A stretch of 64,000 bases of DNA from a virus: IMG/VR virus record IMGVR_UViG_3300008117_000081, positions 33,036-97,035 of that record. The stretch is one strand, 5' to 3'. This document shows, in pieces, positions 1,329 to 55,801 of the stretch (position 1 is its first letter; every line of letters begins with the position of its first letter). Under the pieces are notes generated by a model. That model saw only the letters and a list, made by a program, of their open reading frames with translations, was not told the origin of the DNA and did not search any database. A program made the position numbers and the translations under genes.

Positions 1329-3021
1329 GCTAGAAGAGTTGAAATCAAAAGGTGAAGCGCCAGACTGGATGACCGAAGAAGGCTACGCTACTATCTCAAA
1401 AGGCTATCTACTAGAGGGCGAAACTCCGCGCTCTATGTATAGAAGAGTAGCTAGAGCTGCAGCAGAAGCCATAAACAACAAGCAGCTTGAGGCTAGGTTT
1501 TTTGACGTAATGTACAACAAGAACTGGCTTTGCCCTGCTTCGCCGGTGCTCAGTAATCTCGGCACTAACAGAGGACTTCCTATATCTTGCTTCGGTATTG
1601 ATACACCAGATTCTGTAGATGGCATCTATAAATCACTACATGAGATGGCTATGCTTACAAAGCATGGTGGCGGAGTAGGAATATCGCTAGATAGAATAAG
1701 AGCTCGCGGAGAGTTAATTAGAGGCGGATCAAATGGAAAGTCTGAGGGTATAGTGCCATGGGCAAAATGCTATGATACAGCTATTATCGCTACTTCACAA
1801 GGTAATGTTCGTCGCGGAGCAGCCTCTCTTAACCTAAGAGTTACACATAAAGATTTTGAAGAGTTCCTGTCGATTAGACGACCTCAAGGTGATGTAAACA
1901 GGCAGTGTCTTAATCTGCATCAGTGTGCAGTTGTCTCAGATGATTTTATGAATAAGGTAGAGAACGGAAATTCAGAAGCAAGACAACGCTGGATCGAGCT
2001 GCTTAAAACTAGACTTGAAACAGGCGAACCCTACATCATGTTTGAGGATACAGTCAACAACTCTGCTCCTCAAGCCTATAAGAATAATAATCTAAAAGTA
2101 TCAATGACCAATATTTGCAGTGAGATTACTCTGTTTACAGACGATGATCACAGTTTTATATGCTGCCTATCGTCTATAAATCTAGTCAAATGGGATGAGT
2201 GGAAGAATACTGATCTCGTCAACCTGACGGTCCAGTTTTTAAATGGTGTACTAAATGAGTTCATCAACAGAGCTAGACATCTGCCAGGCTTCGTGCGCTC
2301 GGTGAGATCAGCCGTCAAGGGTAGAGCCATTGGCATAGGTGTTTTAGGTTGGCATACTCTGCTTCAGCAGAAGAATCTGCCATTTGATTCATTTGACTCT
2401 ATGATGCTAAACGCAGAGGTTTTTAAGAACATACATGAGTCTGCTGTTGATGAATCGCGCAAGATGGCAAAAATACATGGCGAGCCTGAGTGGTGCAGAG
2501 GAACTGGAATGTACAACTCACATCTTATTGCAGTTGCTCCTACTAGGTCAAACTCTATCATATCCGGCGATGTGAGTCCTGGTATTGAGCCGATCATAGC
2601 AAATGCCTATACAGACAAAACGGCTAAAGGCGTATTCATCAGAAAGAATAAAGAACTTGCTGTCATACTAGACAAATATGGCAAGAACACAGACGAGACC
2701 TGGAGATCAATACTTGTAGACAACGGTTCGGTTCAGCAGTTAAAATTTCTATCTGAATCAGAGAAAGAAGTATTTAAGACTGCATACGAGATAAATCAGA
2801 AATCTATCATTAGACAAGCAGGTCAAAGACAAAAATTCATAGATCAAGCCCAGTCTTTAAACCTATTCTTTCCAGCAGACGCGGATCCTAAATGGTTCCA
2901 CGAAGTACATATAGATGCCTGGAAAGCCGGTGTAAAGACTCTGTATTATTGCAGATCTAGCTCGGTTATAAAAGGGGACATGGCTAGTAGAGGCGATGAG
3001 TGTAAATCGTGCGAGAGTTAA
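1312..3021 (+). CDS. nrdA: Ribonucleotide reductase, class I large (alpha) subunit
   Basis: The catalytic subunit, 569 residues from the ATG at 1312, which has a GGAGGTAGCG site; an in-frame codon at 1288 has none. Active-site marks are C93 (ISCFGI), the N-x-C-x-E loop (NICSE, about residue 268) that carries the thiyl cysteine, a cysteine pair partner in the ICCLSS segment, the paired tyrosines of TLYY that carry the radical, and a C-terminal C-x-x-C (ECKSCES) that re-reduces the site. It is nearly 200 residues shorter than E. coli NrdA; the missing part includes the N-terminal ATP-cone, so overall dATP control is probably absent, as in many phage enzymes. Confidence 0.95.
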   Translation: MQKTTKLEELKSKGEAPDWMTEEGYATISKGYLLEGETPRSMYRRVARAAAEAINNKQLEARFFDVMYNKNWLCPASPVLSNLGTNRGLPISCFGIDTPDSVDGIYKSLHEMAMLTKHGGGVGISLDRIRARGELIRGGSNGKSEGIVPWAKCYDTAIIATSQGNVRRGAASLNLRVTHKDFEEFLSIRRPQGDVNRQCLNLHQCAVVSDDFMNKVENGNSEARQRWIELLKTRLETGEPYIMFEDTVNNSAPQAYKNNNLKVSMTNICSEITLFTDDDHSFICCLSSINLVKWDEWKNTDLVNLTVQFLNGVLNEFINRARHLPGFVRSVRSAVKGRAIGIGVLGWHTLLQQKNLPFDSFDSMMLNAEVFKNIHESAVDESRKMAKIHGEPEWCRGTGMYNSHLIAVAPTRSNSIISGDVSPGIEPIIANAYTDKTAKGVFIRKNKELAVILDKYGKNTDETWRSILVDNGSVQQLKFLSESEKEVFKTAYEINQKSIIRQAGQRQKFIDQAQSLNLFFPADADPKWFHEVHIDAWKAGVKTLYYCRSSSVIKGDMASRGDECKSCES

Positions 3022-3031
3022 TCTCTCGCAC
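3009..3031. terminator. Hairpin terminator between convergent nrdA and leftward gene
   Basis: GTGCGAGAG and CTCTCGCAC form a perfect 9-bp stem with a TTAAT loop, followed on the + strand by TATTTTAT. It overlaps the nrdA stop and abuts the stop of the convergent gene, so it could serve both directions, although the minus-side tract is poor in T. Confidence 0.65.
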
Positions 3032-3654
3032 TATTTTATAGTATTTGCGGGACTTCTTTCTTGATATTTTAAGTTGAGATATTTTCTAACATACGGATGG
3101 CTTTTTACCTGGTCATCCGATGCTTTAATTGCGCCCGTCACGCCGTTCTTCCAGGCATAGACGCGTCTTAGTTCATCTCTTGGAAAGACTCTAGACAGCC
3201 TGCTCCAGTGTTTGTTGGCAAGCTCTTTGTCTGCGTTTTCATTCGAGTTTACATATGAGGTTATCTCATTATGATCTTTATCTAAGAGTGACCCATACTT
3301 AGCTTTGATGTCGGGGTTTTTTCCGACTATCTCTTTAATAGTATGAGGCATTAGACCTGTTAGGCCAGCAGCTGAATCACCTCTATTCAATCCGTAGTTT
3401 ACCGTCTTATGTTTCTTGTTTTTACCACTAGAACTTTCTATGAAAGCAATGTGATGAAGATCTGGATGAAGGCTCACCTGCTCGTTTGAACTGCTATCTT
3501 GCGGAGCGTAGGGAATTTTCTGTGTGTTTAGTTGACCTGGATCCTGCGACAGCATGCCCGCTAGTGCAGCTGCAGTAAACAGTGAAGCCTTATTGAGGCT
3601 CTTCTCCAGAGTCCATTGGCCGTTGCTTGATATCTTTAAGACTTCTTTGCTCAT
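3031..3654 (-). CDS. Lytic-transglycosylase-like protein with N-terminal NGQW motif
   Basis: A 207-residue protein. Residues 65-195 follow the order of the SLT/goose-lysozyme fold: a helix with a candidate catalytic Glu (FIESSSG, E73), then GLTGLMP (97-103) matching the G-x-x-GLMQ-x-x-P loop, then YAWKNG (166-171) and HPYVRKYL (186-193) matching the usual AYNAG and tr-YV-k-i segments. This suggests cleavage of peptidoglycan during entry or lysis. Residues 11-14 are NGQW, shared with three late proteins, which favours a virion-associated role. A short hydrophobic stretch (24-35) follows the motif. The assignment rests on motif order only. Confidence 0.5.
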   Translation of the reverse strand: MSKEVLKISSNGQWTLEKSLNKASLFTAAALAGMLSQDPGQLNTQKIPYAPQDSSSNEQVSLHPDLHHIAFIESSSGKNKKHKTVNYGLNRGDSAAGLTGLMPHTIKEIVGKNPDIKAKYGSLLDKDHNEITSYVNSNENADKELANKHWSRLSRVFPRDELRRVYAWKNGVTGAIKASDDQVKSHPYVRKYLNLKYQERSPANTIK

Positions 3655-28352: not shown

Positions 28353-30533
28353 ATGGCGATTAATGTATCCTTCAATGGCGCAACTATTTATAGGCCTGGT
28401 GCTTATTCTAAGTTGACAATAGATTTAGGTGGTAATTTTCCGCTTGGTATCGTAGGTCTAGTGGCAATATTTGGTGAATCTACTAGAGGTAAACCTGGTA
28501 GTGAAGAAGCCGATATGTCTAGAAATTTTTTCTTACCTAATCAGATTTCTGAAGTAAGACAAAAATACGGATCTGGTCCGATCGTAGATGCGATGAACTT
28601 TCTATTTTCTCCAGCTTCTGATGGTGCTGTGCCTAATGGTGCACAGGCTGTTTATATTTATAAAACTAATTCGTCCACTAGAGCCACTATGTCATTGCCA
28701 AACTCATTCGGCACTGTTCGCTCTCTTGAGCACGGAATAGGTGGAAATACTATTACTTTCTCTGCAGAAGAAACGGCTGAAGTTGCGCCAATGTCTGAAT
28801 CATCTGCGGATTTTGACGAGTCACTTATTGCTGCTGGATCATTCGATATCTATGTTAACGGTGTTAAGAGTTCTGTAAGTGTTGCAGGCGGTTATGCCGA
28901 CAACGCTGCGCTAGCTGCTGACGCTGCTACGTGGTCTGTTGCTGACGTATCATTTACTGTTAGCGGCGTTGATGGCGCATCTTCTCTATCTATAGAAATT
29001 GATGCAGATCCATTAGCGAGCCGAAATGGTTCTGGTAAAGCACTAGAACTTAAAGATGGCACTGGTGCACCTCTTGCTGCAATGAATATTGCCGAGGGTC
29101 TTGAAGTATCATCTCAAGAATCAAAAATGACACTTACTCTTAAGCAAACAAGAGACTTACTAGAAGAGCAAGAACTTATTGGCGGTAACGTTGTTATGCA
29201 GGTTGGTTTTAGCGGAGCTAGTGCAACTGCTACAGTAGAAGTAACGTCTAGTTCAATTATTCTAGATGCTGGCTCAGCGATCTCAATAAGCAAAGAGTCT
29301 TATCCAACCCTACTTCAACTAGTTAACGCGATAAATCTTAATCCAGGCTGGAAAGCTTCTCTTACTAGCACGCTATATAACTCATTATCACCTAGCGTAC
29401 TTGATGAAGTTACTATTGGTGCGAAATGTTCAAATTCATTAACTATCAAGCCTGCTCGTATCAAAAAAGATGCGTCTGAAGTGGCAAGCTTTTTTAAAGA
29501 TTCATCTATTGCAGATATCGATGATCAATCTGCTGTTGGTCTAGTTGATGCGATGAGTGAAGCTGGACTTTCTGGTGGAGCTCTTGGAGCAACAACTACG
29601 TCTTCTATAACTGCAGCTTTAGCGGCATTCGAAGAGATCAGAGTTAGCGCTGTGGTTCCTCTATTTTCTAGAGATGCAATCCTAGCCTCAGATACTCCTT
29701 CTAGTGATATTGCAGATAACACAACAGATTCCTCGTCTAGCTACACAATACTTGGTATACATCAGGCAGTTAAGACTCACTGTAACTTAATGAGTACTAC
29801 AAAAAATAGAAGTGAGAGACAGGCTTATCTTTCTTATAAAAATAGCTTTGATGCATGTAGAGAGAGATCTGGTCTACTTGCTGATCCGCGTATACAGCTA
29901 TGTATTCAGGACACTAAGAATACTGATTCTCAGGGTAACATAAAGTGGTTTCAGCCTTGGGCACAATCATGTATGCTTGCTGGAGCTCGTTGCGGTTCGC
30001 CAATAGGAACTCCTCTAACGTTTAAATTCTTTAATGTTAGCGGAATTAGACACACCTCTCAGTCGATGTCTACCCCTGAAGAAGATATCGTACAAGACTT
30101 TAATCCTAATGTTAAATACAACGAAGCTATACAAGGCGGAATAACTTTCTTTGAGCAGCCTCAGTCTGGTGGTATCAGATGTCTTCTTGATAATACCACT
30201 TATCAAAAAGACGGAAACTGGGTATACAACAGAGCAAATGTTATGTATGCTGCAGACGTGTTAAGTTTTGATTTTAGAAATCAACTTGAAAACGTATTTG
30301 TTGGTAAAAAGAATACCATATCTGTATCTGAAGTTAGATCTATTGCCTCATCGCTATTAAGCACATATCTTGCACAAGGAATAACAGTATCTACTACTGC
30401 CGCACCAAATGGCTATAAAGATCTATCTGTTAAGATAACTGGCAATACGATCAACATAAGTTTAGTAGCTGTTTTAGTTGAAGGCATTGATTTCGTACTT
30501 AATGATATAACTATCACAAGAGCTGAAGCTTAA
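28353..30533 (+). CDS. Tail sheath protein
   Basis: 726 residues. The N-terminus (FNGATIYRPGAYSKL ... GLVAIFGESTRGKPG) is the standard contractile sheath start: a strand that embraces the neighbouring subunit and the G-E-S-x-x-G-x-PG loop. The large middle insertion (about 120-420) is variable in this family; the last 250 residues hold the conserved sheath core and C-terminal arm. It forms the contracting outer tail. AGGAG precedes the ATG. Confidence 0.92.
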   Translation: MAINVSFNGATIYRPGAYSKLTIDLGGNFPLGIVGLVAIFGESTRGKPGSEEADMSRNFFLPNQISEVRQKYGSGPIVDAMNFLFSPASDGAVPNGAQAVYIYKTNSSTRATMSLPNSFGTVRSLEHGIGGNTITFSAEETAEVAPMSESSADFDESLIAAGSFDIYVNGVKSSVSVAGGYADNAALAADAATWSVADVSFTVSGVDGASSLSIEIDADPLASRNGSGKALELKDGTGAPLAAMNIAEGLEVSSQESKMTLTLKQTRDLLEEQELIGGNVVMQVGFSGASATATVEVTSSSIILDAGSAISISKESYPTLLQLVNAINLNPGWKASLTSTLYNSLSPSVLDEVTIGAKCSNSLTIKPARIKKDASEVASFFKDSSIADIDDQSAVGLVDAMSEAGLSGGALGATTTSSITAALAAFEEIRVSAVVPLFSRDAILASDTPSSDIADNTTDSSSSYTILGIHQAVKTHCNLMSTTKNRSERQAYLSYKNSFDACRERSGLLADPRIQLCIQDTKNTDSQGNIKWFQPWAQSCMLAGARCGSPIGTPLTFKFFNVSGIRHTSQSMSTPEEDIVQDFNPNVKYNEAIQGGITFFEQPQSGGIRCLLDNTTYQKDGNWVYNRANVMYAADVLSFDFRNQLENVFVGKKNTISVSEVRSIASSLLSTYLAQGITVSTTAAPNGYKDLSVKITGNTINISLVAVLVEGIDFVLNDITITRAEA

Positions 30534-32616: not shown

Positions 32617-33174
32617 ATGAGCAAAATTAGACCATTTTTTTTTACAGGTGCACGAGCAAAAATAAAGGTCAATAATAAGACTCTTGCCTACGCAACCAAT
32701 ATATCGTATTCGATTGATATAAATCACTCTGCGCCAGTGCTGTTGGGTATGTATGAGGCCTCTTCCGTAGAGCCTTTAAGCTATAAAGTTAATGGTGAGT
32801 TTACTATAATAAGATATGTCTCTGGTATCTCTGATGCTAACATAGTAAACACTGCAGACAAAGAGACTGGCAACGGAATAGGAAACTGGAAGAGCTTCAA
32901 CAGTCCGGCAAATGATCCTCTTAAATATGCCACTGATTCTAGAACTAACGAATCGCTTAATCCAGGCAGACTAGATCAGGCTTCTGGCTTTGATATAGAA
33001 ATATGGCAGGACAACGTTCCAGCTGCTAAAATAAGAAATGCCAGAATTACGCGTGCTAGCTTTAGTGTATCAGTAGATACGCTTGCACAGCAAGTATTTT
33101 CTTTTACAGCACTTTATGCAGATGAGGATAGCTTTCTGGCTGATTTTTCAGGCAGAGGGCAACAATTTGACTAA
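32617..33174 (+). CDS. Tail tube-like protein, copy 3
   Basis: 185 residues with TGARAKIKVNNKTLAYATNISYSID and the SYKVNGEFTIIRYV strand; the C-terminal part (RNARITRASFSVSVDTLAQQVFSFTALY) aligns with the copies above but is more diverged. It starts two bases after the previous stop. Confidence 0.75.
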   Translation: MSKIRPFFFTGARAKIKVNNKTLAYATNISYSIDINHSAPVLLGMYEASSVEPLSYKVNGEFTIIRYVSGISDANIVNTADKETGNGIGNWKSFNSPANDPLKYATDSRTNESLNPGRLDQASGFDIEIWQDNVPAAKIRNARITRASFSVSVDTLAQQVFSFTALYADEDSFLADFSGRGQQFD

Positions 33175-37771: not shown

Positions 37772-39719
37772 AGTAAAAGTAAAAACCCCAAATGGGTTAT
37801 TTATAGTATACAACTATAGAGAAAGATTTGGCAATAAATACATAAATAAAGATGAGTTTGAGCCTGATCAAGTTATATTAAACTCTGCATCTCTTTTGTC
37901 TATGGCAACAAATAAGAGCAAGGGAGCTCCCGCTGGCACTTTTGAAATAAGACTAGCTGCTTCTAAAAATTGGGTAAGTGCTATAACACCAGGCAGTTGG
38001 TGTGTAATTTTAATGTCAAATTCTCAAATAGGCGTTGGAGCTAAATACAACCACACAGATACGGTAAATGAAAAATCATTTAAGATGCTAGGAAGAATAG
38101 ACTCCGTTAGAAGTGTATCATCGGTTAATCCACAAGATGGCTCTACCTTAAAATATTATGTTGTGACTGGAACTGACTGGGGTACTATATTTAACAGCAT
38201 GCTATATGTGGATCCTCTTGGTAGAAATCCAGAGGAAACTGCCGTGGGTATGGCACTAAGTTTTCTATACACAGACTTTATACAAAGATCTAATGTAGAA
38301 GGAAGCGTTGGTAAGAGTTCAAAGAGCACGCCAATAAGTAAAGATAAGCAGACTAGTGGTGCTCTTGCTGATATGACTAAGACTAGTTCAGAGGTAAAAG
38401 AGGCAGCAAAAAATAAATCTGCCATAGATAACACTCCTGCCAAATCTGAAGTAGCTGATAAAGCTGCGAAAAATAAAAATTATTTTAATGTTTCTGATAC
38501 TATTGATTTTTTAATAAAACTCTGGGGCGTCAATCAAAATAATGCCAAGGCACTTTTTGGCGATAAGATTAATCAAGTTACTCAGGGAAAACTTCTAGGG
38601 AGAGCCCAGAACGAATTTAGGTTGCCAGACAAGTTAAAAAAATACATGAATTTGAAAGAAAATACAGGAACTGGATTTATAGATACAAAAAGTGGGTGCG
38701 GAATACTCGTCGATTATGATAAATATAGTGGTAAAGACGATTCTTTTGTTTTTCTAACTCATGATAGCGTTTATGGCGAGCATACTATGTGGGACGTCAT
38801 AACTCGTAACATGAATAGACTCACTAGTGAACTTATAGCAGAAGTTAGATTTGAAAATGAAAGCACGCCGTCCCTAGCGTTATACAATAGGTGCAAACCA
38901 TTCGTAGTAGATAAATCTCGTTTATATAATGATAGCTATTATGTTGGTGATGGCAAGTCTAGTGACTCAGTTAGTAGTCTTGTAGATCAATATGTTTCTG
39001 AATTTAAGAATATAAGATGTATAGAAATAGACTACAACGATGTATTGTTTAGTAGCTGCGGAACCAACTGGAGAGATAAGATCAATTTCGTAGAGGTATC
39101 TATAGATGCCTCGTATGCGTTTAGCGGCACTGACACTCAGGCTATGGCAAACTATCTTGCTCTTGGTAGCAATTTCTATGATCCCAGATCTATAGCGAGA
39201 GATGGCCTTAGGAGCAGGCGAGAGACAACATACGTTCTCCCTAACGCAGTTATAGCCCGTGATGCTGACATTAGTAAGATGCATGGCCTAAAATATTTAA
39301 TGAAAGAATGGTATTTCCATACTCACACTATGCTAAACGGATCACTGCATCTAGTAGGACAGGATCGATATATTCAGGTTGGTGACAATATCAAGATAGA
39401 CTCTAGAGTTTTAGACATAAATAACAACTTCAACGATATTCAGAAAAATAAAAAAGAAACAATTTTCTTTATTGCACATGTTGAATCGATATCTCACAAT
39501 ATTTCATATGAAGAAGATCATCGATCTTTTACTACAAACATAGTATTTTCTAGAGGTATATTTGTAGATGAAAACTTAAATAGAATACAGACCGATAGTG
39601 GTGGCGCACTAGATCAGGATGCCTCGCTTCTAACGCCTACTGAAGAAAAGAACTACAGAGCATCGACCTCTTCATCTTTTGCTGATCCAGATGCACAAAA
39701 ATTAGGTGGCAATAAATGA
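37761..39719 (+). CDS. Baseplate hub protein
   Basis: 652 residues. The N-terminal segment (FIVYNYRERFGNKY; SWCVILMSNSQIGVG) resembles the gp27/gpD-like hub domain with a beta barrel and OB-like strand; a Lys/Ser-rich insert at 190-240 is probably disordered; the C-terminal part (TMLNGSLHLVGQDRYIQVGDNI) matches a hub wall. It is placed between tape measure and spike genes, as in most myoviruses. Assignment mainly by position and pattern. Confidence 0.6.
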   Translation: MTNKVKVKTPNGLFIVYNYRERFGNKYINKDEFEPDQVILNSASLLSMATNKSKGAPAGTFEIRLAASKNWVSAITPGSWCVILMSNSQIGVGAKYNHTDTVNEKSFKMLGRIDSVRSVSSVNPQDGSTLKYYVVTGTDWGTIFNSMLYVDPLGRNPEETAVGMALSFLYTDFIQRSNVEGSVGKSSKSTPISKDKQTSGALADMTKTSSEVKEAAKNKSAIDNTPAKSEVADKAAKNKNYFNVSDTIDFLIKLWGVNQNNAKALFGDKINQVTQGKLLGRAQNEFRLPDKLKKYMNLKENTGTGFIDTKSGCGILVDYDKYSGKDDSFVFLTHDSVYGEHTMWDVITRNMNRLTSELIAEVRFENESTPSLALYNRCKPFVVDKSRLYNDSYYVGDGKSSDSVSSLVDQYVSEFKNIRCIEIDYNDVLFSSCGTNWRDKINFVEVSIDASYAFSGTDTQAMANYLALGSNFYDPRSIARDGLRSRRETTYVLPNAVIARDADISKMHGLKYLMKEWYFHTHTMLNGSLHLVGQDRYIQVGDNIKIDSRVLDINNNFNDIQKNKKETIFFIAHVESISHNISYEEDHRSFTTNIVFSRGIFVDENLNRIQTDSGGALDQDASLLTPTEEKNYRASTSSSFADPDAQKLGGNK

Positions 39720-40828: not shown

Positions 40829-41016
40829 AGTCAATAGTAAATATTATAGATGCAGACATATCTAGAAGACTAGAAGAGCTAGGCAACGATAGGGAAATTC
40901 TTAAAGATCTTGTTGAACTAGAAAAAGAGTTATTTAGACTAGATTCTGTATGTAAAGAGGAAGAGGCTGATATAAGAATTGACTTAAATTCTTTATATAT
41001 CCTTATTTTCCAATAA
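40825..41016 (+). CDS. Baseplate-region protein, N-terminal part before a frame change
   Basis: 63 residues, ATGA overlap with the spike gene. A helical acidic segment; it stops at 41014. The next frame (-1) is open from 40983 and continues as FPISRTRQSIGSGISPHF..., so this looks like the N-terminus of a larger protein. Confidence 0.6.
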   Translation: MKSIVNIIDADISRRLEELGNDREILKDLVELEKELFRLDSVCKEEEADIRIDLNSLYILIFQ

Positions 41017-44155: not shown

Positions 44156-47100
44156 ATGGCTAACGTAGAGATTAAAAGCTATAATCAAATTCTGGGAGCA
44201 ATGGTAAGAAAAATCATTGCCGATACTGCGATAAATGACGTCAATACCGGATCCGCGCTGCTAACTCTACTTGAAGCGGCTGCCTCTAATGACTTTGAAA
44301 ACAATGTTGCCATACTGAATGTTCTAGAGCTAATGAACATAGACGCCGTTAGAAACAACGATCTAGACTCTTATGGCTCTAATTATGGCCTTACTAGAAA
44401 CGTCGCGGCTAGAGCTTCAGGTCAAATCAAGATTACCGATACAAATATCACAAAGAGAAGCACCAGATTATACTCAATAAAGCCTGCCCCTATAAGAGGA
44501 GCTACTACTCTGTACGTGGCAAATGCATCTGAGTGGAATCTCACTGGAAATCTCTATATTGGTAGAGGTACTCAGAATTTTGAAGGTCCAATTCCATATA
44601 CATCCATTACAGACAATGGTAGTTTTTATACTATAACTCTAGGAGCCTCGCTTCAGAAAGATCATCTTCTTACTGACAGCGTTATAGATGGCCAAGGGAC
44701 AGCTGATAGGCAGATACCAGCTAATACGCTAGTAAGAATACCTGCAAATAACGTTAGTCCAGATATCAGCTATGTAACGCTAAGAAATGCGGTAATTCCA
44801 GCTGGTGAAACATTTGTGGACTCAGTTCCCGTTGTTGCAGTAAACGCTGGCACATCTGGAAATGCTGGGATAAACACCATAACAAGATTTTCGACGCCGC
44901 CATTTTTGGGCGCTGCTGTAACAAATACTATTGCTTTTACTAATGGCAGAGATGCAGAATCAGATGAATCTTTTAGAGATAGAATAAAAGCATATTCGAA
45001 CTCTTTATCGAGAGGTACTCGTCAAGCTATATTATCAGCTATATACGGTGTTTCTGAGGAAACAGATGGCAAGCAGGTTGAATCTGCCAATATAACAGAG
45101 CCAGCATCAATAGCAGACCCAAGCATTATCTATATAGATGATGGTCAAGGTTTTCAACCAAGCTATAAAGGACAGTCTGTAGATCTATTGTTGGCCTCAG
45201 CTAATGGCAGCGAAGAATTTTTACAGCTCGCTAACTATCCTCTACCTAGAGCTCAGGTAGTAAATCTTGCAGAAGCGCCATATCTATTAGCAGACTCTAT
45301 GACTCTTAAAGTTGAAGTAGATGGACTAGAGGAATCTATCGTTCTTTATGATTCTGATTTTAGCAATATTTCTTCTGTGAGTATCTATGATCTAGCTACA
45401 ACAATAAACACTAAATCAGTCAGCTTTAAGTGTAGATTGACAGAGAATTCGTCTAGACTTCTACTGTATCCAACAGATCATACAGCTGAGACAATTAAAG
45501 TCACAGGAGATGGTGGGAGATTCGATGCTAACTCATCGCTAAAATTTCCATTAAATGAATTTTCAAATATAAAACTATATAAAAATAATAAACTGCTAAG
45601 AGAAAAAGAGCTGTCTGCTTCTGTAGCGACCGTAGAATTTTCTACATGGGGAATATCTACTGGCGGTAACTTAATAATTTCTGTGGACGATACTCCGCCT
45701 CAAGATCGTAGTTTTACACTATTAGATTTTGGCGCCAGTAGCTTTTTTTCTGTAACTCTTCAAGACTGGGTTCGTGTATTTAACTATAAGTTTGCAGGAT
45801 TGACTGCTACGGCAACTGCTGCTGGAAGGCTTGTTGTTACATCAAATAAAGGTGGCGAAGAGTCTTCTATTAAGATAGTTGGCGGATCATATCTAGAAAA
45901 CATGTTTAGCTCTCAGACACTAGAGTCTAGTGGTCAAAATTCTGATTTTATCCTTAATAGGCAGAATGGTAATCTACAAATTAAAGTAGATATAGAGGCT
46001 GGAGATACTATCACAGCCGGATCAAGTGACTCAAAGGGATTCATAGTATCCAGCGCTGCATCTAACGGAATATTTAATTTATCTAACGATTCTAGTAATA
46101 GACCCGCAGAGATGGTCATTGTAGCAGATGCTGCAAGAGTTGTTCCAAGATCGCTTAGTCTACCAATTGCGTCTACTATAACTCTACTAGATCAAGGCAA
46201 CAGCATTATGAGAATAATGTCTAGTGCCATATCTTCGTTTAGCAATGTACAAGCTGGTGACTATATCTATATAGTTAGCAGAGGCGAAACTAGAGCAAAT
46301 CCACTAATTGATCCGCCTGGATCAGGCAGCTGGGTAGATGACGCTTCTAGCGGTCTATTTAAGGTACATGCAAAAGGCGAACATTTATATGCTGGAGTAG
46401 ACAGCTACCTAGATGTAAAAAATGTAAACATGGTTTCTGGCGGATCTTATGCAATATTGGATGCGCTTGATATTCAGGCATTCTATTCCGATAAGTATCC
46501 GCAGATATGGAGAGCTTCTTCGCTGTCAGCTCCAGTCTCTGCTAGCATAAATGAAGTAGTTGCATCTATTAACAGTTTAATTAAAGGCGTAGAAGCAAAA
46601 ACTTTTAGAACAAGCTATATAAAAATTACTTCAGCTACTGAAACAAGTGGAAGCATTGCTATACCTGTTTCTGTAGGTGCAGCATCTAGAGTTTTTAATA
46701 CTGCACAAGGCACTCAGCTTGGAACTGAGTCGCATATAGCGAATGTTATTCCAAGCAAAAGTTACTTAACAATGTTTAAACGATCTGAGCCAGAATCAGA
46801 TAATGTTTGGCTAGATAGACACGTTTATAGCGAAATAAGAGGTTCACTTACTGCAAACTCACAGCCTAGCATTGACGGCTCTGGTTTTTATTCTGAAACA
46901 TTAACTGACACTGCTACGGATTTTTTAAATGATATAAGCTATGACGATTTCATAGAAATAACAAGTGGTCAAAATAAGGGCCAATCAAGAAATATTAGGT
47001 CCATATTAAGCTCAAGTCAAATAGGCACAAGAAACTCTACGCCTAGAACTCTAATGGATTACACTGCTGGAGATGAGTATAGTGCAGTTAAAGGTCTAGA

Positions 47101-50100
47101 ACTTTCATCCGAAGATAATATCGTAATGATACTAGACAATGATCCTATAGCTAAAACCATAGATATGCCACTCTCAAGAACTGGTCAGATCAATAGCGGT
47201 TCGCAGCTTTCAAATTTCATACCTACTAGCATAGCATTCTCTGCAGATGACATAGATAACGAGTCTGGTATTGATTTCGGTAAAGCAGATATCTGGGGCA
47301 CTTTGCCATCTCAGGGGAGCACTAACTTTAACGACTACAATATATGGTTTAGAGCTAGAAACTGGTATTATGATAATGGCGCAGCCATGATAATAAGAGC
47401 TAGCGACTATGGTCCAATAGGCGAACAATATACTTTTGGAATCGACTACCCTAGTACTGCCGATAGCGAGAGCACGCTTGTGCAATCTACAATTCCAGGC
47501 GTAACTTCTTTTAGATATGTATTTGGTTCAAACAGCGCAATAAATACAGACATCTCTCCAGGAGACCAGTTCACACTGACAGACTTAGGCTCTAGCATAC
47601 TTAGGTTAAAATTTCCTACTACTGCTAGTGTTAATTCTATAAATATAGGTGATGTCATATCTATAGGTGAAACAAGCGGATTTTCAACAGCAAATTGCGG
47701 AACTTTCAGCATTCTTCAAAAGGATGATATCGCTAAAACACTAGATTTTTATAGCATAGACGGAGTAGCAACAGCAGTAGGTTCAGCTTCAGTTCAAGAG
47801 ATAGTATGCGTTGCAGACTCTAGTGGAAGTCTAAATGGAAGCTATTTTATAGTTAGCGCAGCAAATGGCGATACGGTTAAATTCTGGTATGACAATAACA
47901 ACAGCGGTACACTAGAGCCTGCTTCAATAGCTACAACTAGAAGCTGGGAGATCGACATCCTTAACGATGACACAGATATAGATGTCGCCACAAAAACTGC
48001 CATCATAATGGCAGGAGACCCAGCCTTTGCTTCTGTGACAAATGCCTCTGGAACTTCTGCCACCATATCTATAGTAGATGCAGTCAATGGCCCAGTTACT
48101 GCAGGCCAAGACGGAGTAGTGCCTACAGGTTTTACATTTTTACTAGATATAGCTGGAGTTGCTGACAGCTATGAAACTATAAATCTAGTAAATAAGCTAG
48201 AAATTTTCTCTATAAAACAGAATACTATTGCAGACATAGTTGCTAAAATAAATACAAATCCTATGCTTGAAGCAGTAGAGCACACATCTGGCACATTGAT
48301 TAAGGCCACTAGAGATATAACTGGCGTCGCTATCAATGAAGTAGCCTACTATCATAATCCTAATCCTTCTAGCAATTATCATGATTTTATATCTTTCTGG
48401 GACTCAAAGAACTGGATATCAAGTTTTCAAAATGCTAATCCTAATTTTCAACTTAAAAAACCACTAGTTCTAGTAGGCGTAACGCCACTATACGAGCTAG
48501 ATACTGCAATAAATCTAGATGGAACTACTGGTGAAAAATTTAAACTTATACCATCAACTCTAGATAATCTAGCACATCATATGACACATAGAGCGCTTTC
48601 ACAGCTAAATATAGTGTCTAGAGTTTCTGTTGCCAATGACAGCAGTTCAATACAGATAAAATCACAGCAGCTTGGATCTAGTGGAGCTATAGAAATAGTG
48701 GGTGGTAGTGCAAATAACGCAAAATTTAAATTAATAGGAAGCTCTCAGATAGTTGAAGATTCTGATAATTTCTTGCAGTTTAAAATACCAGCTTCGCCAA
48801 ATACACTTCAGCCAGGACACCATGTTCAACTTGAAAATGACTATGGGGTTGAGCGCATAAGCAGACTAGGTCAAAATGACAGTATAGATGTTGTTAAGAA
48901 GAATGACAGCACTTGCGAGTACATGTATAATTCTAAGAATACTAATTTTAATCAGTATACTAAGATAAATATAGTAGATGCTCACTCGCTAGATCCAATT
49001 AGCTATCCTACTCCTGGAATTGTCTGGCGATGGACTCATGATGATTCAGGTTCATATCTCATATTGTCAGATACAGACGAAGGATCCGTAGACTACAATC
49101 CGCAAATGCGAAATGCAATAGGTGCATTAACATCAAATAGCGAAATTCATCAAGAAGTAACTCAGGCTGGAGACTCTGATGACAATCTAGTTTTCAGAGT
49201 AACTTCTTCTGGAGTACCTGATCATGCAGATTATCTTAGATTTATAAACAGTGCTGATTCTAGCTGGATCGCATGGTTTTCTGTAGACGGTAATCTAACG
49301 CCTCCTGTTATGCTGATAGGCGGAACCCCATCTGTGCAGACAGTTGGTTGTCAGCCAGATGTAGCAAACTCACTTAATGCTTCTTACTTTATATTACAAA
49401 CTCCAAACGGAGATACTGTTAAATTCTGGTATGACAATAATAACGCCGGAGCAACAGAGCCAGCAGTAGGTACTACTACTAGGTCGGTAGAGATTAACAT
49501 AGACACAGATGACGACGTAAATGAAGTAGCCGTTAAAACAGCAGCAGCAATAGACAGCGATCTAGCTTTTGCTAGCGCGGCAGTGACACCTGGAGGAATT
49601 ATTACCGGGTCTCCTACTGTTCATGATATCGATTGTGAGCCAGACATAGCTAATTCACTAGATGGTTCTTACTTTACACTTAATGCTGGAAACGGCGACG
49701 TGGTTAAATTCTGGTATGATAACAATGATGCTGGCACAACTGAGCCTGGTTTAGGCATACCAGGATCACCGTCTATACAGCTTATCGAATGTCAGCCAGA
49801 TGTATCTAATTCACTGGATACTTCTTATTTTGTACTAGAAGCTGGTAACGGAGATACAGTTAAATTCTGGTATGACAATAATAATGCCGGAGCAGCTGAA
49901 CCAGCAGTAGGTACTACTACTAGATCGCTAGAGATTAATATAGACACGAACGATGATGTGAATCAGGTTGCTGCTAAAACAGCTAATGCGATCGATAATG
50001 ATTCAGCTTTTGCTAGTGCAATAGTAACACCAGGCGTAATAATGCCAGGATCTGGGGTGCCTTCTATACAAAGAATTCAGCTGCAACCAGATATCTCCAA

Positions 50101-53100
50101 CTCACTTAATGGTTCTTATTTTGTACTAGAAGCTGGTAACGGAGATACTGTTAAATTCTGGTATGACAATAATAACAGCGGAACAGCTGAGCCTGCAGTA
50201 GGAACCACTACTAGGTCAGTAGAGATCAATTCCATATCTACAAATGATGATTCTGATGCAGTAGCTACACATACAGCTACAGCAATATCATCTGATATAG
50301 CTTTTGCAAGTGTGCTAATAACGCCTGAAATTTCTAATACAGGGTTCGTTGCGCAACTTAATTCCTCTAATCAATCTTTAGCAGATGCTTTTGGTAACTC
50401 AGTAGCTATCAGCGGAGACTACGCAGTGGTAGGAGCACCTCAAGATGACGGCTCTACTGACACTATCACTACTGCTGGTGAAGCTTATATTTTTAAAAGA
50501 AATCAAGGTGGAGCAAACAACTGGGGTTTAATAAAGACACTTAATTCACCCAATGAGGACACAGATGACGCATTCGGCTATTCAGTCGCTATAGATGGTG
50601 ACTATATAGTAGTAGGTGCATATGGCGATGAAGGTTCTACTGGTACTATTGGTACTGGTGAAGCCTATGTCTATAAAAAAGATCAGGGTGGAGCCGATAA
50701 CTGGGGCTTAATTAAGACACTTAATTCCGACAATGAAGATGATGGAGACACATTTGGTAACTCAGTAGCTATAGACGGTAATTATATAGTAGTAGGGGCT
50801 AGAACAGATCATGGTACTGCTGATGCTATTGGTAGTGCTGGTGAAGCCTATGTCTACAAAAAAGATCAGGGTGGTGTTGATAACTGGGGCTTAATTAAGA
50901 TACTTAATTCCGACAATGAAGATACTGGAGATCAATTTGGTTGGTCAGTAGCTATTAGTGGTGATTACATAGCAGTAGGGGCATTCGTTGATGACGGATC
51001 CATAGACGCTATTATTGACGCTGGTGAAGTTTATGTCTTCAAAAAAGATCAGGGTGGTGTTGATAACTGGGGCTTAATTAAGATACTTAATTCCGACAAT
51101 GAAGATACTGCAGATCAATTTGGTTATTCAGTAGCTATTAGTGGTGACTATATAGTAGTAGGTGCATATGGCGATGACGGATCTACTGATGCTATAAGTA
51201 GCGCTGGTGAAGCCTATGTATTTTATAAAGATCAAGGCGGAACTGACAATTGGGGTTTAATTAAGACGCTTAATTCTTCCAATGAAGATGCAAATGATTA
51301 TTTTGGCTGGTCAGTAGCTATTAGCGGTAACTATATAGTAGTAGGTGCACCTTTCGATAGAGGTATTGCTGATGGCGTTAGTAGCGCTGGTGAGGCTTAC
51401 TTATTCTATAAAAATCAAGGCGGGACTGATAACTGGGGTTTCTTAAAACAACTTAACTCACCTAATGAGAACGGAGATAGATTTGGAAGTCAAGTGGCTG
51501 TAGACGGCGACAATATAGTGGTTGGAGCATCTTCTGATGACGGCTCTACTGAAACTTTAAATGACGCTGGTGAAGCATATATATATAGTATCAATCTTGC
51601 AACTCCAACTCCAGCGTCTATAGATTTAGCAAATGCTGACTCTGGACCGGTAGCGATTGGCACTGACGGTACTCCTGCTACTAATTTTACATTTAGTGTG
51701 GTTTTGACTGGAACACCTGACGGTCTAAGTCCTGCGACAATAACAGTGACTAATTCTGCTGATGGTCCAGTTAATGCTGGAGTTGACGGCACTACACCTA
51801 CGAATTTTATTTTGTCAATAGATACTATTGGCGTAGCGGGTGTTCCTGCTGTTCCTTCCGATAGATCAGTAGAGATTAATGTAGATACAGATGACGATGT
51901 TCTAGCAGTAGCTACTAAAACAGCTGATGCGATCGATAATGATTCAGCTTTTGCTAGTGCAACAGTGACAACCACGACGGTTCCTGGCAATATCGCTATA
52001 CAGACAATAGGCTGTCAACCAGACGTCTCTAACTCACTTAATGGTTCTTATTTTGTACTAGAAGCTGGTAACGGAGATACTGTTAAATTCTGGTATGACA
52101 ACAATAACAGCGGAACAGTTGAACCTGCGGTAGGAACCACTACTAGGTCGCGAGAGATTAATATAAGCACCAATGATGATTTTGAAGAAGTGGCTACTAA
52201 GACGGCGAATATTATTGACAATGATTCAGCTTTTGCTAGCGCAATAGTAACAACTACAACTGCACCAGTAATAACCCCTGGCTCTTATATTAAAGCAGCA
52301 GCTACTCCTAGCGGTTACAATTGTATATATACAAAAATATCAGGCGATTACATGTTCGCTGTCGGATCTAATGGCCTGCTATCATCAGTTTTCATACATA
52401 AGAAAAATCAAGGTGGATTAAATAACTGGGGACTAATCAAGACGCTGCCTTTTAGCGGATTCAATAGTATTATTATTGATGCAGATGGAGACTATCTAGT
52501 CGTCGGTGCTTTTGAGGACGGCGGTTCTACTAATGCTATCAGTGCTGCTGGTGAAGCCTACGTCTACAAAAAAGATCAGGGCGGAATTGATAACTGGGGA
52601 CTTACTGCTACACTTAATTCACCAGATGAAGACTTGTACGATCGATTTGGTACCTATGTTGCAATAAGCGGAAACTATATCGCGGTACATGCTGCAGGTG
52701 ACGATGGTTTTACTGATACAGTCAATGATGCTGGCGAAGTATATATATTTAAGAAAGATACGGGACTAGAGAGCTGGAGCTTAATCAAGAGTTTTACTCC
52801 TGGATTTGAGGTTGCTGGCAACAATAGTGGCGCGCCTTTACATTTAAGTGGTGATTATTTAGTATTAAAGCCATCTAACTTATCTTCAATTATTAATTCA
52901 ACTATTATTGTGTATAAGAAAGACCAGGGCGGAGTTGATAACTGGGGATTAGTCAAAACTATCACTGCTCCAAATTTTTCTACTTGGCCACCAAATGGTA
53001 ATTTTGGCTATTCAGTAAATATTAGTGGCGACTATATCATAGCACTTGAAACTCCATATGAATATCTGCATATTTTTAAGAAAAATTACGGCGGAACTGA

Positions 53101-55801
53101 AAATTGGGGCTTGATTAAAACGTTAACATCGCCTAACCCAGATGCCGGCGATTTATTTGGCTGGTCAGCCGCTATCAGTGGCAACTACATAATAGTAGGC
53201 GCATATAGTGATGATGGTTCTACTGATACAACTGTTGACGCTGGTGAAGCGTATGTATTCTATAAAGATCAAGGCGGAGTTGATAACTGGGGATTACTTT
53301 CTACATTAAATAACCCTTTTGAAAACGTTGGAACCAGTTTTGGCTCCGGTGTTTCCATTTCTAGTAATTTTATAGCAACGACTGGCGCAGACGGCGGTAA
53401 TGCTAAAGCTTACATATTTAATACTGCTGGCTCTGGCAGTGGAACAACTGTTAATTCTGCTACTATAACTGTAACCAATGCACAAGTTGGTTTAATAACT
53501 GCTGGAGTAGACGGTGCTGGTGCTGATGCTACTGGTTTTAACTTTTCTCTGATTTCTCCTGGAACAGGCGAGACTATAAGCGGCGCAACTATAACTGTAA
53601 ATAATGCAGACAATGGTTTAGTAGCTGCAGGTGCTGACGGTACTCCATCTACGAATTTTAATTTTAGTGTAGTAACTGCTGGTTCTGATGATGGTTTTGC
53701 TCTAGCTTCTATAACAGCAACTAGCTCGCAAAATGGCCCGATAACTGCAGGCTCAAATGGATCGCCTTCACCTGGATTTATATTTGGTGTGACGACTAAT
53801 GGCGTAGCTGATGCTACTGTGCCTATATCTGCAGATAATATTGTTAGAGTAGACGTATTAAGTACAGATACACCTAATCAGATAATAGCCAAACTAGGCA
53901 TAGCACTCTCTATTAATGGTATATCTAGTGACTTTAGCATAGGTCAAACTCCTGGAGCTACACTTTCTCAGGTAACCGAGGGCAGCTTATTAACATTATT
54001 TTCTGAAAGTGGTATAGCAGTAGACGGCTGGAGTACAGGTAATTTCTGTAAAAATACTGGCTCTAATGTGATTGGTGGACTTCCTATAGTGGCAGTAAAT
54101 CAATCTGCCAAATATCTAGACGTAGAAAATCCAGATGGAAAAGCTATGTCTGCTACAGAGATAGGTGGAAACGAGATTATAATATCTGCAGCACCTGCAC
54201 TAGAATGGCATCTAGCACACTCAGCGCCTAATAAGATTCAGTCTATAGCTATAGCTTCGAATATAGCAACTGCAACTACAGAAAATCCTCATGGTCTAGA
54301 CGTTGGCGATATTTTTACAGCCATAGATATTCCAAGCAGTGCGAGTCCAAATACTGGAATAGTTCTAAGCATAGTAGACTCAAATAAATTTACGTACGCC
54401 TCAACTAATTCAAATGCGCTAAGTATTTCTCCTGCAGGTCTAATTCTCAAACCTGGGCAAACTAGAACTCGCTACAAGATTGAGTCACTTGGGCATAACG
54501 GTATGAATAGGCTTTCTTTGGTTGATGGTGACTCGCCTAAATTTTTAAGTTGTGGTGCAGCAGTAGACGACTTACTGTTAGTAAGTGGATCTAGCTTTGG
54601 CTCTGCAAATAACGGTGCGTTTAGAATACTGGCGCTAGACAACGATTCTATTGTCTATAGAAATATGCAGGCGCTAGAAAAGCTGGACACATTTGTTGCC
54701 TTTAATAATTATAGCCTAGAGCCAACATGGACATCTAATTCTAATATCGTAATTGGCATACCTGGAACTTTTAGTAATTTGAGTATTGGTGACTGGGTTA
54801 AGAAAACAACAGACGAAGACACACTGCTGGTTCAAGTAAGTGGATTTAATTCTTCGCTTGCTAAAGATGCTACAATAGTTACACTAAGTAGTAGCTACAC
54901 TGGAGACAGCGGAAACTCTCCTTCTCATGCACTAGATCAAAACTCAGATATAGGCAAAGGCGTTTACTTAAATAATGCATCTGATATTAGAATACTAGAA
55001 GGCGACTCAGCAAGAGTTAGTGACAACTTATTCATTAGTGAAAATACAAGCGATAGCTGGTTTAGTCTTTCTAATTCAGGAAACTTTGATATCCAGGATC
55101 TAGGAACAGATGGCTTATCTGGTAGACAGTATATTAGAGTAAATAATTCTAGTGGACTTTCTGAAATAGATGTTAGTGCTGGCTTAGCAAATAGTAAATT
55201 CTTAATAACTGAAAATGATGACAATAAGTTTACGTCAATAAGAGAAGTCTATCATACAGCCATAGATCCGCTAAACGAAAATAGACGTATAGTATATCTT
55301 TCTGGAGGAGATCGCGATTATAAATGGAATGAGAACAACTCTAGCTTTATATCTAGTGTAGGTAAAATTGGCTATGATAACTCGATAGTAGTTGGTATAG
55401 ACGGTTATAAATACTATACAGGACTACTCAGAAAAGTTCAAAGAATTGTAGATGGATTTGACCCTGATTCGTCCTCTTTTCCTGGCAGAAAAGCAGTTGG
55501 AAGTGCGATAGAAGTTCTTCCGCCTATACCTGTTAAAGTATCTATATCTGTAGACATAACAACACAAGATGGTGTTAACTTAAGTGAGATAACCGACGAG
55601 ATAGCTTCAGCAATAATAAGCTATGTGTCTAATCTTGGAGTAGGCGAAGACGTGATACTCTCTGACATAATTGTAAGAATTAAGAATATAGTAGGTGTTG
55701 AAGCGGTAACATTTGTTTCGCCTACACCAAACAACGAAAGAATATCTATATCTGAGGGCGAAAAAGCTTTTATTCAGCCTTCTGATATTAGTATTACCTA
55801 A
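44156..55801 (+). CDS. Giant baseplate J-like (gp47) protein with two beta-propellers
   Basis: 3881 residues; this class is usually far shorter. The N-terminus (VNTGSALLTLLEAAASNDFENNVAILNVLELMNIDAVRNN...) and C-terminus (VKVSISVDITTQDGVNLSEITDEIASAI..., with VVGI/EAVTFVSP) are baseplate-J. Inserted between them, from about residue 1212 to 3215, are repeat arrays: six copies of a GDTVKFWYDNNN unit, two sets of seven FG-GAP units (about 2065-2479 and 2710-3090), and six or more TITVTNAxxGPVTAG units. Each set of seven fits one integrin-like propeller. GGAAGACGC precedes the ATG. Adhesion to host glycans or proteins is inferred. Confidence 0.85.
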   Translation: MANVEIKSYNQILGAMVRKIIADTAINDVNTGSALLTLLEAAASNDFENNVAILNVLELMNIDAVRNNDLDSYGSNYGLTRNVAARASGQIKITDTNITKRSTRLYSIKPAPIRGATTLYVANASEWNLTGNLYIGRGTQNFEGPIPYTSITDNGSFYTITLGASLQKDHLLTDSVIDGQGTADRQIPANTLVRIPANNVSPDISYVTLRNAVIPAGETFVDSVPVVAVNAGTSGNAGINTITRFSTPPFLGAAVTNTIAFTNGRDAESDESFRDRIKAYSNSLSRGTRQAILSAIYGVSEETDGKQVESANITEPASIADPSIIYIDDGQGFQPSYKGQSVDLLLASANGSEEFLQLANYPLPRAQVVNLAEAPYLLADSMTLKVEVDGLEESIVLYDSDFSNISSVSIYDLATTINTKSVSFKCRLTENSSRLLLYPTDHTAETIKVTGDGGRFDANSSLKFPLNEFSNIKLYKNNKLLREKELSASVATVEFSTWGISTGGNLIISVDDTPPQDRSFTLLDFGASSFFSVTLQDWVRVFNYKFAGLTATATAAGRLVVTSNKGGEESSIKIVGGSYLENMFSSQTLESSGQNSDFILNRQNGNLQIKVDIEAGDTITAGSSDSKGFIVSSAASNGIFNLSNDSSNRPAEMVIVADAARVVPRSLSLPIASTITLLDQGNSIMRIMSSAISSFSNVQAGDYIYIVSRGETRANPLIDPPGSGSWVDDASSGLFKVHAKGEHLYAGVDSYLDVKNVNMVSGGSYAILDALDIQAFYSDKYPQIWRASSLSAPVSASINEVVASINSLIKGVEAKTFRTSYIKITSATETSGSIAIPVSVGAASRVFNTAQGTQLGTESHIANVIPSKSYLTMFKRSEPESDNVWLDRHVYSEIRGSLTANSQPSIDGSGFYSETLTDTATDFLNDISYDDFIEITSGQNKGQSRNIRSILSSSQIGTRNSTPRTLMDYTAGDEYSAVKGLELSSEDNIVMILDNDPIAKTIDMPLSRTGQINSGSQLSNFIPTSIAFSADDIDNESGIDFGKADIWGTLPSQGSTNFNDYNIWFRARNWYYDNGAAMIIRASDYGPIGEQYTFGIDYPSTADSESTLVQSTIPGVTSFRYVFGSNSAINTDISPGDQFTLTDLGSSILRLKFPTTASVNSINIGDVISIGETSGFSTANCGTFSILQKDDIAKTLDFYSIDGVATAVGSASVQEIVCVADSSGSLNGSYFIVSAANGDTVKFWYDNNNSGTLEPASIATTRSWEIDILNDDTDIDVATKTAIIMAGDPAFASVTNASGTSATISIVDAVNGPVTAGQDGVVPTGFTFLLDIAGVADSYETINLVNKLEIFSIKQNTIADIVAKINTNPMLEAVEHTSGTLIKATRDITGVAINEVAYYHNPNPSSNYHDFISFWDSKNWISSFQNANPNFQLKKPLVLVGVTPLYELDTAINLDGTTGEKFKLIPSTLDNLAHHMTHRALSQLNIVSRVSVANDSSSIQIKSQQLGSSGAIEIVGGSANNAKFKLIGSSQIVEDSDNFLQFKIPASPNTLQPGHHVQLENDYGVERISRLGQNDSIDVVKKNDSTCEYMYNSKNTNFNQYTKINIVDAHSLDPISYPTPGIVWRWTHDDSGSYLILSDTDEGSVDYNPQMRNAIGALTSNSEIHQEVTQAGDSDDNLVFRVTSSGVPDHADYLRFINSADSSWIAWFSVDGNLTPPVMLIGGTPSVQTVGCQPDVANSLNASYFILQTPNGDTVKFWYDNNNAGATEPAVGTTTRSVEINIDTDDDVNEVAVKTAAAIDSDLAFASAAVTPGGIITGSPTVHDIDCEPDIANSLDGSYFTLNAGNGDVVKFWYDNNDAGTTEPGLGIPGSPSIQLIECQPDVSNSLDTSYFVLEAGNGDTVKFWYDNNNAGAAEPAVGTTTRSLEINIDTNDDVNQVAAKTANAIDNDSAFASAIVTPGVIMPGSGVPSIQRIQLQPDISNSLNGSYFVLEAGNGDTVKFWYDNNNSGTAEPAVGTTTRSVEINSISTNDDSDAVATHTATAISSDIAFASVLITPEISNTGFVAQLNSSNQSLADAFGNSVAISGDYAVVGAPQDDGSTDTITTAGEAYIFKRNQGGANNWGLIKTLNSPNEDTDDAFGYSVAIDGDYIVVGAYGDEGSTGTIGTGEAYVYKKDQGGADNWGLIKTLNSDNEDDGDTFGNSVAIDGNYIVVGARTDHGTADAIGSAGEAYVYKKDQGGVDNWGLIKILNSDNEDTGDQFGWSVAISGDYIAVGAFVDDGSIDAIIDAGEVYVFKKDQGGVDNWGLIKILNSDNEDTADQFGYSVAISGDYIVVGAYGDDGSTDAISSAGEAYVFYKDQGGTDNWGLIKTLNSSNEDANDYFGWSVAISGNYIVVGAPFDRGIADGVSSAGEAYLFYKNQGGTDNWGFLKQLNSPNENGDRFGSQVAVDGDNIVVGASSDDGSTETLNDAGEAYIYSINLATPTPASIDLANADSGPVAIGTDGTPATNFTFSVVLTGTPDGLSPATITVTNSADGPVNAGVDGTTPTNFILSIDTIGVAGVPAVPSDRSVEINVDTDDDVLAVATKTADAIDNDSAFASATVTTTTVPGNIAIQTIGCQPDVSNSLNGSYFVLEAGNGDTVKFWYDNNNSGTVEPAVGTTTRSREINISTNDDFEEVATKTANIIDNDSAFASAIVTTTTAPVITPGSYIKAAATPSGYNCIYTKISGDYMFAVGSNGLLSSVFIHKKNQGGLNNWGLIKTLPFSGFNSIIIDADGDYLVVGAFEDGGSTNAISAAGEAYVYKKDQGGIDNWGLTATLNSPDEDLYDRFGTYVAISGNYIAVHAAGDDGFTDTVNDAGEVYIFKKDTGLESWSLIKSFTPGFEVAGNNSGAPLHLSGDYLVLKPSNLSSIINSTIIVYKKDQGGVDNWGLVKTITAPNFSTWPPNGNFGYSVNISGDYIIALETPYEYLHIFKKNYGGTENWGLIKTLTSPNPDAGDLFGWSAAISGNYIIVGAYSDDGSTDTTVDAGEAYVFYKDQGGVDNWGLLSTLNNPFENVGTSFGSGVSISSNFIATTGADGGNAKAYIFNTAGSGSGTTVNSATITVTNAQVGLITAGVDGAGADATGFNFSLISPGTGETISGATITVNNADNGLVAAGADGTPSTNFNFSVVTAGSDDGFALASITATSSQNGPITAGSNGSPSPGFIFGVTTNGVADATVPISADNIVRVDVLSTDTPNQIIAKLGIALSINGISSDFSIGQTPGATLSQVTEGSLLTLFSESGIAVDGWSTGNFCKNTGSNVIGGLPIVAVNQSAKYLDVENPDGKAMSATEIGGNEIIISAAPALEWHLAHSAPNKIQSIAIASNIATATTENPHGLDVGDIFTAIDIPSSASPNTGIVLSIVDSNKFTYASTNSNALSISPAGLILKPGQTRTRYKIESLGHNGMNRLSLVDGDSPKFLSCGAAVDDLLLVSGSSFGSANNGAFRILALDNDSIVYRNMQALEKLDTFVAFNNYSLEPTWTSNSNIVIGIPGTFSNLSIGDWVKKTTDEDTLLVQVSGFNSSLAKDATIVTLSSSYTGDSGNSPSHALDQNSDIGKGVYLNNASDIRILEGDSARVSDNLFISENTSDSWFSLSNSGNFDIQDLGTDGLSGRQYIRVNNSSGLSEIDVSAGLANSKFLITENDDNKFTSIREVYHTAIDPLNENRRIVYLSGGDRDYKWNENNSSFISSVGKIGYDNSIVVGIDGYKYYTGLLRKVQRIVDGFDPDSSSFPGRKAVGSAIEVLPPIPVKVSISVDITTQDGVNLSEITDEIASAIISYVSNLGVGEDVILSDIIVRIKNIVGVEAVTFVSPTPNNERISISEGEKAFIQPSDISIT
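47790..50330 (+). repeat. GDTVKFWYDNNN intragenic repeats (first block)
   Basis: Five copies, at about 47800, 49340, 49620 (truncated), 49780 and 50070; a sixth is at about 52005. The unit reads ANSLNGSYFVL-x-AGNGDTVKFWYDNNNSGT-x-EPA, then TRSVEIN and an Ala-rich end. Copies at 49.8, 50.1 and 52.0 kb are nearly identical in DNA, indicating recent copying. Confidence 0.8.
50350..51590 (+). repeat. Seven FG-GAP blades, propeller 1
   Basis: Seven units begin DAFGNSV, DAFGYSV, DTFGNSV, DQFGWSV, DQFGYSV, DYFGWSV and DRFGSQV, each followed by AISGDYIVVGA, DDGSTD, AGEAYVYKKDQGG and NWGLIKTLNS. Units are highly alike in DNA, so the set grew by tandem duplication. Confidence 0.85.
52285..53425 (+). 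repeat. Seven FG-GAP-like blades, propeller 2
   Basis: Seven units, more diverged than the first set (for example ISGDYMFAV, ADGDYLVVG, DRFGTYV, LHLSGDYLVL, GNFGYSV, DLFGWSA, TSFGSGV). The blade count matches the first set, supporting two folded propellers. Confidence 0.75.

Follow-up and report, generated by a model that had tools for sequence, protein, structure and literature searches.

The window analysed here is a stretch of 64,000 nucleotides (positions 33,036 to 97,035) of a 97,035-bp virus record, IMGVR_UViG_3300008117_000081, and window positions are used throughout. It belongs to an uncultivated phage with a contractile tail and encodes a baseplate wedge protein of the J type (T4 gp6-like). 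We propose, with a probability of roughly 70%, that this protein carries a nested arm of about 1,510 residues that bears two propellers. The arrangement can be written H[A(B[C(D(P1))](E(P2)))], where H is a domain of the J protein, A to E are copies of one module, and P1 and P2 are the propellers.

A baseplate wedge protein with an insert in domain H

The reading frame at 44156-55801 contains no stop and codes for 3,881 residues. Its N-terminus matched the Pfam profile Baseplate_J (PF04865, E 2.8e-16, 60 bits, cut-off 21.1), the protein matched phrog_6 (baseplate wedge subunit, E 9e-39), and the C-terminus matched phrog_1608 (phage tail family, E 8e-6). A contractile tail gene cluster lies upstream: the tail sheath gene occupies 28353-30533, and further baseplate genes are located at 39716 and 42549. 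Both ends of the protein and the gene context thus bear out the original prediction, made from the sequence alone, that this is a baseplate J gene. J-type proteins are structural components of the baseplate wedge. The gene, its conserved ends, the insert and the two parts of the domain that flank it are as follows:

44156..55801, + strand: gene for the baseplate J-like protein, 3,881 aa (open frame; PF04865 and phrog_6 matches as above)
44696..45016, + strand: conserved Baseplate_J region, residues 181-287 (Pfam match; weak match to the solved phage wedge protein 8kea)
49181..49303, + strand: host domain H, first part, residues 1676-1716 (continuous in eight relatives)
49304..53830, + strand: whole insert, residues 1717-3225 (missing from relatives)
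53831..54025, + strand: host domain H, second part, residues 3226-3290 (continuous in eight relatives)
55430..55732, + strand: conserved C-terminal J region, residues 3759-3859 (phrog_1608; weak match to the solved TRI-2 CD1371, 8v3w)

Domain H runs without interruption through the insert position in eight relatives (L002, L020, L021, L022, L023, L041, L044 and L046). The empty site of L002 reads WFSINGNLTAPTGATYLSATNKV, and the J protein with the insert reads WFSVDGNLTPPV, followed by the insert and then by SADNIVRVDV. Where the gene of a relative is complete, its J protein has approximately 2,370-2,380 residues. FG-GAP units were not found in the J-family relatives in the sequence available, several of these contigs being fragments. 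The insert was seen in one phage species only, and four other IMG/VR contigs, from samples 3300008266, 3300008339, 3300008452 and 3300042691, carry its DNA without a single difference.

It is hardly credible that the repeats of the insert are an artefact of assembly. Indels of the kind that assembly produces do exist in these contigs, as the window is about 100 bp short near 40999 and contig 3300008266_000027 is 31 bp short at 46696-46726. However, the insert is open throughout in the four further contigs, and identity between a propeller unit and the most similar unit of its array is about 50-83%, a divergence that a misassembly loop of short reads would not produce. Five assemblies with an identical insert largely rule out this source of the repeats. 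As for the indels themselves, the sequence missing near 40999 relative to two other contigs (L001 6745-6844) breaks a 321-residue frame and probably reflects either a mistake in assembly or a true deletion. The 31-bp loss (L001 near 12540) falls inside J and causes a frameshift, and contig 3300042691_038058 matches the window.

A module in pieces and two predicted propellers

Six KFWYDNN units are present as originally predicted, five of them exactly GDTVKFWYDNNN and one GDVVKFWYDNND, but the one at residue 1243 is not part of the insert. The GDTVKFWYDNNN units and the TITVTNA units had been taken for separate repeats; they are instead the first and last parts of one module of approximately 131 residues. 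This module occurs unbroken once in J (M1, residues 1210-1340), and relatives carry it too. We built a module profile solely from seven unbroken copies and ran it over the whole J protein. The module family had no convincing match in Pfam (searched as part of J), PHROGs, PDB sequences or named phages, and domain H scored 0.7 bits here against the module profile, with weak matches in L044 and L041 (E 0.005-0.013). Within the insert, the profile found complementary pieces in the order A, B, C, D, P1, D, C, B, E, P2, E, B, A:

47783..48175, + strand: module M1, uninterrupted copy (full-length profile match; once in each relative spanning the region)
49325..49600, + strand: module A, N part, model positions 3-90 (module profile)
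49610..49765, + strand: module B, first part, model positions 3-50 (module profile)
49766..50056, + strand: module C, N part, model positions 3-90 (module profile)
50057..50335, + strand: module D, N part, model positions 3-94 (module profile)
50336..51604, + strand: propeller P1, seven FG-GAP blades, N-terminal strand closing the last blade (Pfam, unit count, AlphaFold2, PDB match)
51605..51730, + strand: module D, C part, model positions about 91-128 (module profile)
51731..51838, + strand: module C, C part, model positions 93-127 (module profile)
51839..51985, + strand: module B, middle part, model positions 51-91 (module profile)
51986..52270, + strand: module E, N part, model positions 2 to about 93 (module profile; AlphaFold2 model)
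52271..53449, + strand: propeller P2, seven diverged FG-GAP blades (unit count, AlphaFold2, structure search)
53450..53581, + strand: module E, C part, model positions about 92-129 (module profile; AlphaFold2 model)
53582..53701, + strand: module B, last part, model positions 92-129 (module profile)
53702..53830, + strand: module A, C part, model positions 92-129 (module profile)

The pieces open and close like matched brackets, A(B[C(D(P1))](E(P2))). P1 lies at the fifth level counted inside H, and the nested reading is the sole non-crossing assignment of the halves. Module B is cut twice (50/51 and 91/92), and its middle piece (51-91) is placed where C and D have closed. When rejoined, each of A to E matches the profile from position 2-3 to position 127-129 with 135-152 bits, scores that speak for completeness and not for pairing, as any N half joined to any C half scores well. 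Together, the five modules and two propellers account for 1,498 of the 1,509 insert residues.

The same pieces could in principle have arisen without nesting, if the N half and the C half were small domains in their own right, each duplicated in tandem on its own, and occurred in equal numbers by coincidence. The N halves are 65-80% identical in DNA, with one 147-nt block at 93%, and the pairs A-B and C-D lie within a 441-nt spaced direct repeat, a pattern expected of tandem duplication. The nested pairing is also not visible when halves are compared with each other: in a test of congruence between N and C halves it ranked 82nd of 120, an uninformative result, and the C halves are too short and saturated for pairing to be read from sequence identity. 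Against this explanation, which we regard as improbable, the halves are contiguous in one module in every relative that spans the region. Separate duplication also does not predict that B should be cut at 50, continue from 51 once C and D are complete, and be cut again at 91 for E. Finally, in the structural model of E(P2) described below, the C part of module E provides the strand that comes after the last one of the N half, with a pLDDT near 82.

The propellers were recognised from the sequence and from predicted structures. FG-GAP units are known to form seven-blade propellers in integrins. The Pfam profile FG-GAP_2 (PF14312) matched the J protein in 10 stretches (E 2.4e-100), and the two predicted arrays of seven FG-GAP-type units each were recovered at residues about 2061-2483 and 2706-3098. 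Structure prediction, proposed as a check on the original claim, agreed with it: AlphaFold2 closes both arrays into seven-blade propellers of 28 strands each. In both models the strands follow the order 1+6x4+3, which corresponds to seven blades with the last one shut by the N-terminal strand. The description of units as near-identical in DNA did not hold, as the highest identity of a P1 unit to another P1 unit is about 66-83%, and that of a P2 unit to any other unit is 50-73%.

Model 1 covered residues 1821-2608 (788 residues) and used nine sequences, propeller homologues only. P1 was predicted in it mostly at pLDDT 70-96, with 28 strands (7 x 4), and the top PDB matches of the P1 model were integrin alpha heads (E 1e-16, about 17% identity). 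Modules B, C and D were left unfolded in Model 1 because its alignment was nearly without module sequences. Model 2 covered E(P2), residues 2613-3141, and used 33 sequences (alignment A4), reaching a mean pLDDT of 76.9 and a pTM of 0.68. P2 was predicted with lower confidence than P1, and its model matched many propeller types and not integrins in particular.

In Model 2, the N part of module E has a pLDDT of about 78-92 and the first strand of the C part one of about 82. The module is predicted to consist of strands at 3-8, 20-24, 30-37 and 52-58, a helix at 64-76 and a strand at 81-91, followed after the propeller by strands at 487-496 and 517-521. Both recurrent break sites fall in predicted loops, one at 38-51 (used in B) and one after strand 81-91 (used in A to E). 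In alignment A4, the two ends of E on either side of P2 are matched by unbroken modules from relatives; the alignment contains separate half-module rows and no propeller-only rows, a choice which helps Model 2 to place both halves of E. Earlier alignment designs were dropped, as propeller rows pulled module rows out of place. The nesting of E around P2 is thus predicted by a structural model, and that of A, B, C and D is suggested by the profile pieces.

We postulate that the arm entered a loop of domain H and that it is made of five copies of the module that J already held once (M1) and of two integrin-alpha-like propellers. Two loops of the module, at positions about 50/51 and about 91, would have served as fixed entry sites, each copy being opened at one of them or at both to take in the next piece. 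Module B is opened at both, so the arm should fork, with P1 on one branch and P2 on the other. The arm may have grown as modules were copied within the phage and blades were exchanged with tail-fibre genes.

Related blades in fibre genes and the possible role of the arm

Two fibre-like genes with the same FG-GAP propeller are located about 20 kb downstream of J, outside the window, in contigs of the identical phage. F1 has 905 aa and seven units, and F2 has 843 aa and six units; a third fibre paralogue of 517 aa is without FG-GAP units. The three paralogous genes lie in tandem (L030 4579-11327), with propellers in the collar-like tip of two of them. The tips of F1 and F2 resemble a collar-like domain of another phage, a domain whose Collar match, in one copy, is weak and below the cut-off, and that other phage type carries FG-GAP units at the equivalent tip position. 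Units 5 and 6 of P1 have 87% and 85% DNA identity, respectively, to unit 3 of F1, and no unit within their own array comes as close, which suggests that blades have been exchanged between the J arm and the fibre genes.

Natural variation was found in the fibre genes. F2 has seven units (906 aa) in contig 3300042691_038058 and six units (843 aa) in three other contigs, a difference of one 189-nt gap plus 10 mismatches within the gene. The two forms are located at L053 9289-12006 (seven) and L054 9289-11817 (six) and are otherwise near-identical. The six-unit form could conceivably be a collapse of repeats in assembly, but the flanking differences argue for real strains. In unit 5 of F1, 23 mismatches between near-identical contigs cluster in 91 bp (L053 8714-8804); one version of this tract resembles F1 unit 3 (87/94) and the other F1 unit 7 (91/94), so that it likely represents gene conversion. 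These contigs display zero mismatches over 17 kb, most of J included. The claim that the arrays evolve by recombination is therefore supported for unit-level exchange and for copy number in the fibres, but the J arrays, identical across five assemblies, displayed no variation and no change in copy number.

A search for a bacterial source of the propellers returned only two distant matches, to Ignavibacteriales (43%) and Sulfotelmatobacter (33%), neither of which points to a donor or a host. A protein encoded on an Ignavibacteriales contig (L047 2125-6285) has three FG-GAP arrays, each about 400 residues long.

Judging by position and by analogy with other phages, the arm probably projects from the baseplate and grips the host cell, its propellers binding something on the host surface. 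An adhesion arm is the simplest reading because J-type proteins form the baseplate wedge. It is possible, though we consider it less likely, that the architecture is right and the propellers do not bind the host. They could be structural, spacing or stabilising the baseplate or contacting the fibres, or they could bind glycans of other particles. J-type wedge proteins are indeed structural, propellers have many roles, and P2 is diverged, as a domain under weaker constraint could be. On the other hand, the same propeller occurs in two fibre genes of this phage, within their collar-like tips, and in a tip gene of another phage. Collar-like fibre tips are the usual site of receptor-binding heads. 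Likewise, the platform of the phi11 receptor-binding protein consists of propellers, and phiKZ gp131C offers a further analogy (PMC4901313). The fuller version of the adhesion reading is that repeated self-insertion of a module gave a doubly threaded arm that forks into two branches, each tipped by an integrin-like head. On this view, self-nesting would be a means of constructing adhesion arms, and the arm and the tail fibres would trade blades. We judge this version evenly poised between right and wrong.

Comparison with known systems

FG-GAP units in phage baseplate proteins are already known. Gp8 of Synechococcus phage S-MbCM6, with 7,022 aa, is likewise a giant wedge protein of a contractile phage and has about six or seven FG-GAP units. 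It differs from the protein described here in being a gp8 wedge protein and not gp6/J, and the module profile was unmatched in the 4,310 residues of it that were searched. A J-like viral protein is also listed far down the results of the structure search. Our full-text search of open-licence papers returned nothing that combined FG-GAP with a phage baseplate or tail fibre.

A comparable depth of nesting is known from SI3 of the cyanobacterial RNA polymerase. Deep domain nesting is rare, and this polymerase is a survey's six-level example (PMC13114784). SI3, located in rpoC2 (beta-prime), is reported to show six-level recursive insertion, with domains coloured to depth 5, and is like the proposed J arm in its recursive insertion, its bifurcating nodes and its use of mostly a single kind of small beta domain (PMC13114784). 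It differs in fold and protein, lacks propellers, and is a conserved polymerase feature, whereas the J insert has been seen in a single phage species. Among the open-licence papers searched we found no earlier description of recursive module insertion in a phage baseplate. What is new is the combination: one module recursively inserted in a phage baseplate protein, a predicted fork with two propeller ends, and the pre-insertion state preserved in relatives. With the unbroken module and the empty site present in close relatives, the growth of the protein can be traced stepwise. The forked arm with two heads is a clear structural prediction, and the natural blade-number variants of the sister fibre genes can be tracked in sequencing data.

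The propellers also have known counterparts. P1 is like the integrin alpha head in its predicted fold, a likeness of fold and not a claim of membership, and it differs in being viral, in its low identity and in having no known integrin beta partner. The phi11 receptor-binding protein and phiKZ gp131C, a seven-bladed propeller at the baseplate periphery, are phage baseplate propellers like those of the J arm (PMC4901313). They are, however, separate proteins and not inserts in J, and the paper does not call them FG-GAP propellers (PMC4901313).

Among named phages, the best match to the J N-terminus was the J protein of Myxococcus phage Mx1 (35% identity over 98%), which differs in having 1,925 aa and no FG-GAP units. 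The gene that follows J in Mx1 (L015 25769-28717) encodes a kelch-propeller protein, so that a propeller adjoins J in that phage too.
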